Below are positions 25,126 through 58,826 of a DNA stretch of 64,000 nucleotides, piece after piece; position 1 is the stretch's first letter, and each line of letters starts with the position of its first letter. Source of the stretch: Lepraria neglecta (taxonomy: Eukaryota; Ascomycota; Lecanoromycetes; Lecanorales; Stereocaulaceae). The DNA is taken from the NCBI GenBank assembly GCA_033220425.1, contig CM065648.1, positions 806,001-870,000 on the forward strand. The letters run 5' to 3'. Under the pieces are notes generated by a model that saw only the letters and a list, made by a program, of their open reading frames with translations, made no database searches and was not told the origin of the DNA. The translations under genes and the position numbers were made by a program.

Positions 25126-25131
25126 AAAAAA
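25126..25131 (-). terminator. Pol III T6 terminator of the interrupted tRNA
   Basis: Six Ts on the minus strand begin two nucleotides after the tRNA discriminator base, the usual place for an RNA polymerase III stop. This supports a tRNA locus once transcribed by Pol III. Confidence 0.75.
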
Positions 25132-25132
25132 G

Positions 25133-25307
25133 CACTCACGGCGGGGCTCGCTGAGATAAGAATGAGCATAAGAAAGAAGTAGTTTAATTTGATGTTTTAC
25201 TTACAACCCGCAGCCTCCAGATTAGAAGTCTGACTTTGGGAGAGTTAGTTAAGAATTTTCTCCAAGATTTAGGAACACATACTGCGCTACCATTGCGCCA
25301 CGCGAGC
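25133..25307 (-). tRNA. tRNA-Arg(UCU) interrupted by two spliceosomal-type introns
   Basis: Exons 25307-25283, 25233-25205 and 25150-25133 join into a 72-nt tRNA. Acceptor stem GCTCGCG pairs with CGTGAGT (two G-U pairs), discriminator G. D arm is GCGC-AATGGTA-GCGC, anticodon arm TCAGA-CTTCTAA-TCTGG with anticodon TCT, variable loop AGGCT, T arm GCGGG-TTCGAGC-CCCGC. Every stem pairs fully. The sequence closely resembles yeast tRNA-Arg(UCU) as I recall it. Intron 1 (25282-25234, 49 nt) begins GTATGT, has CTAAC about 13 nt before its end and ends AAAG; it falls between positions 26 and 27. Intron 2 (25204-25151, 54 nt) begins GTAAGT and ends TCAG; it falls between 55 and 56 in the T loop and splits the B box (GGTT | CGAGCCC). 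The A box (TGGCGCAATGG) is intact. The canonical 37/38 intron is absent. Confidence 0.85.
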
Positions 25308-56020: not shown

Positions 56021-58826
56021 ATGAAGAAACATGGGTCACACAAGGCTGGAAAGCAGAAGACTCCAGCCCCGACTTCTGATAGCTCAAGTCAACATACGCA
56101 AATACCTGCATCCCTATCATCAGCAATCAATCCCAACCTACCTCCATCTGTGCCTATCCCGCTACAACGTTCCATCGGTTCACACCGACAGACTGGCCCA
56201 AAGGTGGCCATACCTCGCCTACAGCGGGGCAGCGAAGATCAACCTGTATCAAAAGCATATACAACGGCGGACAAGCATCGGGTTACACATGCATGTGAGC
56301 CGTGTAGGCATAGGAAGACAAAGTGCAGTGGGGAACGTCCGGCCTGCCTGCACTGCCAAGACTTTAGATTGCGCTGCGTGTATGCGGATGGCAAACGCGA
56401 TAGAACTAGGAAGTAAGTTGTGTTGACAATCAACATGAAAATCAACACCTAGCTAACGCCATGGAATCAAAGACAACTCGGCAGTCTAGCAGGCAGAGTT
56501 GAAGAGTACGAGAGTCTTCTATCAGGTCTTTGGAACCGTGTAGGAGAAGATGATAAAAAACTGATTCGAACAGCTTTAGATAGGGTAGGAAAGCACTCGC
56601 TGGCTTTCATTCTAAACAGCTAAAACATTACAGGAGACATATTCGGACGATGACGACGTACAGTCTACCTTGAGTCCGAGACGGACTAGTGTATACCGTG
56701 AACCCGCTGGCGAACACGAAGTGTCAGCCCGCGCTGGATCCATTGAATCTTTGGATCAAATCGATGAAGACTTCAATCGGAATGTTGCCGCCCGAGCTAC
56801 AGGGTTCCACGGCAAGAATTCCGAAATCACCTGGATGCAACGGCTCCAAAGAGGGAGCACAGAGGACAGTGATGAGTATGCACTGGATCCAGGCGTCGAT
56901 GGTCAAAACTCACCAGCGTCTAAGACTCATCACCTCAGCTCAGGCAATGCTCCCATCAGCGAGTCATCGTACCATTGTGACGACATAACTGTGTTGATCT
57001 CCGAACAGGTCGATCCGTACGAAGTGCCACCTCAAGCTACGGCAGATAAGCTCTTCAAGAGCTACCTGGACACGGTCCACCCTGCCTTCCCAATTGTTGG
57101 CAAGCAGACCTTCAGTGATCAATATCAAGCTTTCTCAGCTAGCGCTAATAAGACGAAGATCAACCAGAGTTGGCTGGCGATCTTGAACTTGATCTTTGCC
57201 ATTGGCGCAAAATACTCTCATCTAATTCAAGCTGAATGGAGAGGTGACCCAAGAGATCATCTGATTTACTTCACTCGTGCTCGAATCCTTGGTTTCAATG
57301 AGGATCACATCCTTGGACATGCAGAGCTACAAAGAGTACAAATTACAGGACTAATGGCTTTCTATCTTATGGCTATCAACCAGATCAACAGGTGAGTCGT
57401 TTGCTTCGAGGGATCATTTTCAAAAGTCCGCTGGCTAATGTGGTCAAGATCGTGGGTAGTGAGTGGTATTGCTATCCGGCACGCTTTCAGTCTGGGTCTT
57501 AACCTGCGGAACGCGAACAAAGACGTGCAAGAGGCTTCAAGAGAGATCAGATATCGTGTCTGGTGGGCTCTATGTTCCATTGAACGAGGACTAGCAGTCA
57601 TGACAGGTCGTCCGACGTCATTTGCTGAGACCGACTGCACAGCGCCGTTGCCACTCCCCTTGGAAGAGGACTCACTCTATAGCATAGCATCGACAAGTCC
57701 CCAAGTTATTCAAAGATTCAGAAGTATGTCTAGCCAAGAGTCTCGTCAAAACGACAAGTCAAGGTCATCGCCATCCTCAAGCAGTCATTCCTCCAAGGTG
57801 AGAGGATCACCGGCCAGCTCATCCTCATCACAAGAAATGAAGCAGGCAATTCCTCCCAGCAGCGCTCTAGCTTTTGGCTTCAGTATGAGGCTCAACACTT
57901 TTACCAATGAGGTCCTGAATCGCCTCTACCGCGCTGACGCCATGGATCAGTCCTGGGCCCATGTACAAGGCACCATTGCTAGTCTCAATTCCAAATTAGA
58001 AAAATTGCAATCAGAGCTGCCACCTATATTTGATTTCTCCAAAAAGCAACGGGATCAACAATTCATGCCTCAACGACTGGGCCTAGGTTTCTTCTACTAC
58101 AGCACATCCATGATTATCAACCGCCCCTGTTTGTGTCGTATTGATCGCAAAATCCCAAATGAGTCCGGCAAAGCCCGCGATTTCAACCGGGAAACTGCAG
58201 CCCGATGTGTGCATGCGGCCCGAGACATGCTGGGGCTGCTGCCGGACGAGCCTAATCCAGTGGGTCTTTACAAGGTTGCTCCCTGGTGGTGCTTAGTGCA
58301 TTATCTCATGCAGGCAGCCACCGTGATGATGCTTGAGATGTCCTTCCGAGCGGATCACATGCCCACAGAGGTCGAAGAAGTTTTTAATTGCGCAAAGAAG
58401 GCGTTGGAATGGCTGCGAAGCATGGCTGATGATGATGAAGCTGCCCGGCGCGCTTCGGTATTATGCAATGATCTGCTGCACAAAGTTGCACCGAAGGTTG
58501 GAAGAAATCCCAACGAGGCCTCCGGCTTTGGGTCACACCGCTCTCAGAGTATGGAAAACGTGCAGAGTATGCAGGATGGCCATATCGACCACAGTGAACC
58601 AGCTCAAAGTCAATCACAGTACGCCTACACAACCTCAGCACCGTTCCAGCCCCAAATATTTACATCTTACGACCAATTCCTGTCTTACGGCAACTTACCA
58701 ACCACTTCGGGGGCGCCGTTCGAGGAGATGTTCCCAACAGCTAATGAAATGGAGAATATGAATTTCGAGGATCCTGGGTTCTTTCAAGGGCCGGATCAGC
58801 GATGGTTTCCTGGCAGTAGCTCCTAG
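56021..58826 (+). CDS. Zn2Cys6 fungal transcription factor with fungal-specific middle domain
   Basis: DNA-binding regulator of the Gal4 type. Four exons (56021-56412, 56473-56584, 56634-57391, 57449-58826; introns 60, 49 and 57 nt) give 879 residues. The zinc cluster has Cys at 92, 95, 102, 109, 112 and 119 (HACEPCRHRKTKCSGERPAC), followed by a basic linker (GKRDRTRK) and a dimerising helix (LAGRVEEYESLLSGLWNRV). The fungal_trans domain spans roughly residues 300-560: LDTVHPAFPIVGKQTF, LNLIFAIGAKYSHL, SGIAIRHAFSLGLNLRN and RVWWALCSIERGLAVMTGRP. A Ser-rich loop (SSQESRQNDKSRSSPSSSSH) interrupts its end. The C-terminus is Gln/Ser/Tyr-rich and likely activating. Target genes cannot be inferred from this context. 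Confidence 0.92.

Follow-up and report, generated by a model that had tools for sequence, protein, structure and literature searches.

Probable spliceosomal introns in a nuclear tRNA-Arg(UCU) gene and in at least 16 other tRNA genes of a fungal genome

INTRODUCTION

Introns of the mRNA type occur in U6 snRNA genes of fungi, and Bhattacharya et al. reportedly described, in 2000, ectopic spliceosomal introns in the nuclear rDNA of lichen fungi. That lichen rDNA carries such introns is also stated in the available text of two papers (PMC8527467, 2021; PMC6652019), and in that of the former the yeast spliceosome is reported to have removed a lichen spliceosomal intron from an rRNA made by Pol I. 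The splicing of tRNAs is described as spliceosome-independent, for example in the accessible portion of a 2026 review (PMC13149111), and noncanonical tRNA introns of eukaryotes are recorded from nucleomorphs and from a red alga in what is available of a review of tRNA introns (PMC4090602). The spliceosome is not mentioned in the available portion of the latter review, nor are tRNAs in that of the rDNA paper (PMC8527467). A literature search brought up no paper that describes tRNA genes with spliceosomal introns; such a search covers subscription papers thinly, and an earlier report is possible.

We have analysed a stretch of 64,000 nucleotides from Lepraria neglecta (hereafter the window), together with the 42-Mb, 11-contig assembly that contains it. 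A preliminary description of the window had proposed a tRNA-Arg(UCU) gene split by two introns of spliceosomal appearance. A hypothetical protein of this genome shows 49% identity to a protein of the lecanoralean ascomycete Stereocaulon virgatum, and its calcium ATPase 87% identity to that of the same species, with Mycoblastus, Puttea, Psora, Bacidia, Lecanora and Teloschistes further down among the matches. Two ATPase matches that carry no species name stand at 98%, possibly the fungus itself given that the database is clustered, and at 86%. Stereocaulon and these six genera form lichens, and the proteins accordingly point to a lichen-forming ascomycete near Stereocaulon.

RESULTS

The window gene

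The split tRNA-Arg(UCU) gene lies on the minus strand, as do all its parts, at positions 25133..25307 of the window, and its exons of 25, 29 and 18 nt give 72 nt once joined. Exon 1 (25283..25307) comprises the 5′ strand of the acceptor stem, the D arm and base 26. Intron 1 (25234..25282, 49 nt) follows at the 26/27 junction; it begins with GTATGT, contains a branch-site-like CTAAC (25244..25248), whose branch A lies 11 nt upstream of the 3′ end, and closes with AAAG. Exon 2 (25205..25233) provides the anticodon arm, with the anticodon TCT at 25224..25226 in the ARAGORN drawing as well as in the sequence, the variable loop, the 5′ strand of the T stem and T54-T55. Intron 2 (25151..25204, 54 nt; GTAAGT...TCAG) is placed at 55/56, where it cuts through the T loop and thereby also splits the B box; at 8-15 nt from its end a good branch site is lacking, the best candidate being CTTAT at 18. 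Exon 3 (25133..25150) runs from C56 through the 3′ strands of the T and acceptor stems to the discriminator G. A single C (25132) stands between the discriminator and a T6 run (25126..25131), a probable Pol III terminator, after which the sequence continues GCCCTTT.

Both the identity of the gene and the boundaries given in the preliminary description proved exact: removal of 25282-25234 and 25204-25151 leaves a 72-nt cloverleaf with its stems paired, and the T6 run (25131-25126) starts one base after the discriminator. The spliceosomal look attributed to the two insertions was upheld by their GT-AG ends and by the 5′ sites GTATGT and GTAAGT, in each of which G5 and pyrimidine 6 extend the splice site. 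ARAGORN reads the joined 72 nt as tRNA-Arg(tct) with a score of 118.7, all four stems being paired, and the conserved bases considered in the strict cloverleaf score described below are in place. In the unspliced window the tRNA is seen neither by ARAGORN nor by Rfam at the gathering threshold, in keeping with the expectation that a standard tRNA search would miss it.

The two introns sit at 26/27 and 55/56, not at the Sen-type position 37/38, and the central helix of a bulge-helix-bulge can form three of its four pairs at intron 1 and none of four at intron 2. Group I or group II introns were rejected as an explanation of the insertions: no Rfam family exceeds its gathering score in the window, and 49 and 54 nt are too short for such introns. 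The A box is intact, and a contiguous pair of A and B boxes is not present; within ~210 bases upstream or 430 downstream of the gene, every candidate B box has at least two mismatches. Among 363 Arg codons in 13 long ORFs from the window, AGA is the commonest, with 82.

Chance tests at the window locus

Joined exons were evaluated with a strict cloverleaf score made up of stem pairs, loop sizes, T8, the D-loop GG, T33 and the T-loop TTCRA. When deletions of 25-110 nt were tried, the GT-AG deletion of intron 2 was the single best among 1,925 scorable ones, and that of intron 1 tied with one AG-AA alternative, which keeps G, not A, as base 26. ARAGORN scores more loosely and places the intron 1 deletion 16th of 3,827; this program is too loose in variable loops to decide intron boundaries. 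Since an enumeration based on ARAGORN, without matches at 27 control loci, nevertheless missed one of two positive controls, we relied on a strict, intron-aware scanner that takes out as many as four segments of 44-64 nt with set dinucleotide ends, the rules and the length range of which were fixed only after the genes had been read.

With the 3′ end held fixed, GT-AG was the only one among 256 dinucleotide rules to yield a cloverleaf at the window locus. Allowing up to three introns, the GT-AG scanner came up empty both on 40,000 segments drawn at random from the window and on 10,000 dinucleotide-shuffled versions of the gene; run over all 127,602 3′ ends that the window offers, it returned exactly one match, the tRNA-Arg(UCU) gene itself. 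Under ARAGORN, eight of the 256 rules give some tRNA at this locus, GT-AG scoring highest (118.7 versus 111.0 for the next). The rule comparison, the shuffles, the random segments and the scan of the window rule out chance as the origin of the split cloverleaf, and the joined exons, assessed with ARAGORN and the strict score, are far from chance. Their folding energy is ordinary and uninformative (-28.0, as against a shuffle mean of -25.4, sd 3.2).

Genome survey

A search of the assembly, whose contigs are designated C1-C8 where named below, with RF00005 produced 29 matches (E ≤ 10), of which 27 exceeded the cut-off; an ordinary Val(CAC) gene, read later, was missed by it, so the tRNA search is not exhaustive. 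A pattern combining a T arm with a T run had 95 genome matches as compared with 33 for the reversed control, and four D-arm patterns had 9, 39, 9 and 26 as compared with 1, 16, 3 and 37. Many matches to the T-arm pattern are explained by a repeat that contains GGTTCGATTCCTAATGGCGCTGGTACAATGG (e.g. C2:3011804-3011846 and C2:3930653-3930695), probably a family unrelated to tRNA genes. Loci were taken from the RF00005 set, one D-arm set, 30 loci of a shorter T-arm pattern, 34 chosen stretches and 16 more.

Applied to 102 non-redundant loci (193,645 bases, 369,134 ends), the scanner returned 32 rows: 14 unsplit genes, 16 split genes, one of which occurs in two loci, and one weak match (L014, score 25.25, three introns), which was treated as false. 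Leu(AAG), which needs a longer segment, raises the number of split genes to 17. In this way, at least 17 tRNA genes on eight contigs are read as split by 29 GT-AG introns, with up to four per gene. Four of them, Met(CAT), Thr(TGT), Gln(TTG) and Ala(AGC), were found blind, an earlier reading by eye not having called them split. The scanner also recovers all nine eye-read loci whose T arm matches the pattern, a result that is not independent, the rules postdating the reading, and stays silent at 30 further T-arm matches (8 undecided, 22 negative).

The split share is 17 of 31 genes under the strict rules, and 17 of 43 when 12 weaker unsplit tRNA-like loci are added (L003, L010, L012, L014, L015, L019, L024, L026, L028, L029, L104 and L116); the sample is enriched for odd loci, and 17 versus 14 is not a genome-wide ratio. 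None of these 12 gave a strict unsplit match. The undecided T-arm loci L080, L081, L082 and L065, which lack a strict cloverleaf, are outside these counts. Within the 102 loci of this non-exhaustive survey, no strict unsplit gene was seen for Ala, Gln, Glu, Lys, Pro, Trp or the initiator-like Met, and no gene at all was recognized for Asn and Phe. The unsplit locus L014 (C2:5471768-5471879, minus strand) is Trp(cca) according to ARAGORN and Ile(TAT) with a 39-nt intron at 37/38 in our own parse; if ARAGORN is right, Trp would have an unsplit gene too. Among the other weaker loci, L028 parses with the anticodon CGG at a low score, and L024 and L026 are adjoining Cys(GCA)-like copies (C5:1909226-1909632) with low strict scores, probably pseudogenes. 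L092 has a T-arm-like sequence at its edge.

An uninterrupted tRNA-Arg(UCU) gene, the existence of which would have weakened the proposal, was not found when the genome was searched with a single pattern for an open Arg(UCU) 5′ half with an A box beginning TGGC, which matched at 83 places as compared with 108 for the reversed control. One of the 83 is tRNA-like, a second Arg(UCU)-like locus (C4:3133827-3133959) in which a 61-nt GT-AG removal from the variable loop leaves two mismatched pairs. This doubtful locus fails the strict rules and is outside the 17 genes and 29 introns, though inside the set of 25 introns used in some of the tests below. When the joined exons were used as a DNA query against the genome, no match resulted; this silence is uninformative, as the window gene itself was also missed.

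The split genes

Junctions are given in Sprinzl numbering, by our own conversion for Met, Thr, Gln and Ala. Apart from the doubtful second Arg(TCT) locus, one split gene was found per anticodon. In at least 10 of the split genes, an ordinary anticodon-loop intron at 37/38 coexists with the GT-AG introns. These are Arg(CCT) (C4:3821894-3822030; 51/52), Leu(TAG) (C3:987461-987613; 14/15), Leu(AAG) (C1, T arm at 4272986; 11/12, 16/17, 27/28 and 49/50), Ser(GCT) (C2:4120916-4121125; 28/29 and just before 49), Tyr(GTA) (C5:2735363-2735499; 31/32), Val(AAC) (C2:1207515-1207652; 26/27), Asp(GTC) (C6:3016736-3016955; 24/25, 51/52 and 61/62), Glu(CTC) (C2:1216523-1216664; 49/50), Pro(TGG) (C1, T arm at 3051585; 24/25) and Lys(TTT) (L086, C8:3837165-3837398, minus strand; 15/16, 26/27 and 27/28). 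Gln(TTG) (C3:1396551-1396684; 3/4) is a possible further case, having an 11-nt ordinary intron in the scanner parse and none in that of ARAGORN. GT-AG introns are the only ones noted in the window gene, Arg(TCT), and in Ser(AGA) (C7:3862287-3862520; 24/25, 32/33 and the variable arm), Trp(CCA) (C8, D arm at 3926141; 61/62), Met(CAT) (L016, C2:547752-547871, minus strand; 4/5, inside the acceptor stem), Thr(TGT) (C7:1873526-1873699; 13/14 and 65/66) and Ala(AGC) (C6:3526217-3526340; 59/60). An internal promoter box, A or B, is split in the window gene and in several others. The T loop of the split Met(CAT) gene, ATCGAAA, carries A54, a feature of initiator tRNAs.

Some of these loci show further peculiarities. 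In Lys(TTT) a single-nucleotide exon, base 27, separates two introns, and these may be excised in steps or as a spliceosomal twin intron. Leu(AAG) has a second copy of its 11-nt first exon 135 nt upstream (L042), again followed by an intron-like GTCAGT...GCTAAC...TTAG; the copy would represent a partial duplication or an alternative 5′ exon. At L021, the Rfam match at 1501-1573 misreads Thr(TGT), intron sequence standing in for the acceptor stem.

Intron properties

The exons, the intron boundaries, the splice signals and their recurrence in other tRNA genes are there in the DNA as read. The 29 introns measure 45-63 nt, with a median of 51; G5 is present in 28, a pyrimidine at position 6 in 27 and a YAG end in 25. 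A YTRAY motif with its A 8-15 nt before the end, a range picked after the result with a wider window on 25 introns, occurs in 25 of the 29, as compared with a mean of 3.4 and a maximum of 11 in 2,000 shuffles; in the earlier set, YTRAY was found anywhere in the last 36 nt in 23 of 25 introns (shuffle mean 8.1, maximum 15 in 1,000). The scanner demands of an intron only GT, AG and length, and all five introns of the genes found blind nevertheless have both G5 and a placed branch site.

Boundaries were compared with alternatives across the set. For 18 of 25 introns the strict deletion scan offered nothing better than the GT-AG deletion, which was uniquely best for five of these; for 6 of 25 it offered 1 to 7 better deletions, and Pro was not validly scored there. 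When the 256 rules were run with the strict scanner at 14 eye-read loci (13 of the 17 genes and the doubtful second Arg(TCT) locus), GT-AG was best or tied at 12 and uniquely best at seven. Loci with intact arms yield a cloverleaf under many dinucleotide rules as well; at the Tyr locus 167 rules do so and six beat GT-AG, and at the second Arg(TCT) locus no rule passes. In the corresponding ARAGORN test GT-AG was best or tied at the window and at five others of the 14 loci, and not best at eight, with ranks of 6 to 54 at seven of these and, at Arg(CCT), no match under any rule. Unsplit Ser(TGA) can be aligned with split Ser(GCT) with 66 identities in 81 positions, gapless at both insertion sites. 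Comparison with Ser(TGA) moves the 5′ site of the third Ser(AGA) intron by 4 nt, to GTAGGT rather than GTTTCT, in agreement with the scanner.

TTTT occurs within 28 nt after each of the eight split genes that were not found by the T-run pattern, the chance being 0.084 for each. The ordinary 37/38 introns are 7-39 nt long in the well-parsed genes. Recent copying of one mobile intron was considered and rejected: the best alignment between any two of 25 introns scores 21, and the mean maximum of shuffles is 23.

A coding intron in the window (57392-57448, plus strand; 57 nt), read from protein continuity, resembles the tRNA introns in its GTGAGT, CTAAT and CAAG, the AAG end being that of intron 1. 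It interrupts an apparent fungal transcription factor gene. When coding introns of the window were sought ab initio, 28 GT-AG candidates emerged as compared with a control mean of 29.6, and because this search did not beat its control, the comparison of tRNA with mRNA introns rests on this one example. Three U6 matches over the cut-off (C7:424175-424274, C2:2573604-2573709 and C2:3573227-3573330) span the whole model uninterrupted, and 13 matches to 5S rRNA over the cut-off do so without insertion, so that the introns have spared some Pol III genes.

DISCUSSION

The explanation that we favour, with a probability of about 0.87, is that the window holds a working nuclear tRNA-Arg(UCU) gene with two U2-type introns, probably transcribed by Pol III and spliced by the spliceosome, and that at least 16 other tRNAs are produced likewise. 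Pol III would transcribe the window gene to the T6 run, the spliceosome would take out both introns, and the joined RNA would fold and be trimmed like an ordinary tRNA. In the at least 10 other split genes that also have an intron at 37/38, the tRNA splicing endonuclease would remove the latter, two unrelated splicing machines sharing one precursor. From the arrangement of the DNA we infer that the window tRNA is transcribed, spliced through lariats and used in translation. The introns may have arisen by ectopic gain, as is known for spliceosomal introns in the rDNA of lichen fungi.

The least certain step is transcription. Normal TFIIIC-driven transcription of the window gene is in doubt because intron 2 splits the B box and there is no good B box nearby; upstream TATA-like control or transcription by Pol II may be involved. 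The tRNA could accordingly be spliced by the spliceosome from a Pol II transcript, or from within a longer RNA, and then be released. This would suit the splitting of internal promoter boxes in the window gene and several others, as well as the fact that spliceosomes normally work on Pol II transcripts. T runs directly after the split genes speak against it, however, and so does the splicing in yeast of a lichen spliceosomal intron from a Pol I transcript: because yeast spliced the intron from rRNA, according to the available text of PMC8527467, spliceosome action on a transcript not made by Pol II is supported. We regard such an origin of the precursor as rather unlikely; it differs from the favoured explanation in the polymerase only, and the confidences placed in the two overlap.

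Decidedly improbable is the view that the window locus is a dead tRNA pseudogene with inserted intron-like DNA, the real tRNA-Arg(UCU) coming from elsewhere. The split B box would agree with it, as would the non-exhaustive nature of the genome search, in which RF00005 passed over Val(CAC); but the four stems pair and the tested conserved bases are kept after splicing, at least 17 genes are alike, no unsplit Arg(UCU) gene was found with one pattern, and the splice signals are near-consensus, whereas decay would hit stems and signals alike. We give hardly any credence to a third possibility, namely that the insertions are noncanonical introns cut by the endonuclease at bulge-helix-bulge motifs, as in red algae and nucleomorphs, their GT-AG ends being coincidental. 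The enzyme is presumably present, since the genome has ordinary 37/38 introns. Yet a 4-bp central helix with the right geometry exists at only one of 25 introns tested, and endonuclease cleavage needs neither the G5 seen in 28 of 29 introns nor the placed branch site seen in 25 of 29. The GT-AG ends themselves were not counted against this possibility, as they are part of gene recognition. The possibility is further weakened by the 10 ordinary introns in the 13 eye-read split genes satisfying the strict rules: in our parse, all of them lack GT-AG ends.

If the favoured explanation holds, protein synthesis in this fungus probably depends on the mRNA splicing machine for its tRNAs. We further think it likely, with less assurance than for the window gene, that in this lichen lineage spliceosomal introns have come to pervade the set of nuclear tRNA genes, the initiator tRNA-Met probably among them, that translation is wholly spliceosome-dependent, that two machines act on one precursor and that Pol III genes with split promoters work. 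A genome in which a large share of tRNA genes needs the spliceosome would, if true, break the rule that tRNA splicing is independent of it. Several questions would thereby become testable, among them spliceosome action on Pol III transcripts at scale, intron gain in structural RNAs, the tolerance of Pol III for split promoters and a tRNA supply limited by splicing in lichens. In practical terms, standard tRNA finders overlook or misread split genes, as at the window locus and at Thr(TGT).

Known systems resemble the present one in part. Nuclear introns cut by Sen likewise interrupt tRNA genes and have to be removed before the tRNA can function, but they lie at 37/38, whereas the GT-AG introns described here occupy many other positions. 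U6 snRNA genes of fungi are likewise short Pol III genes with spliceosomal introns; U6, however, acts inside the spliceosome, while the hosts here are tRNAs and the three U6 matches of this genome that exceed the cut-off carry no interruption. In archaea, red algae and nucleomorphs, as far as the available text of PMC4090602 goes, tRNA genes may also have several introns at D-arm, T-arm and other sites; those are, in the same text, archaeal or bulge-helix-bulge introns, or insertions of 3-24 nt whose mode of removal is unknown, in contrast to the GT-AG ends, branch sites and 45-63 nt of the introns found here. Close as well are the introns of lichen rDNA, which are of the same kind, in the same kind of organism, and in a structural RNA gene that is not transcribed by Pol II. 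Their host is a Pol I rRNA of many copies, whereas the present hosts are tRNA genes, at least 17 in number, some with split promoter boxes. Ectopic spliceosomal introns in structural RNA genes are thus known; what would be new is that their hosts are tRNAs, and that they occur on a scale relevant to translation.
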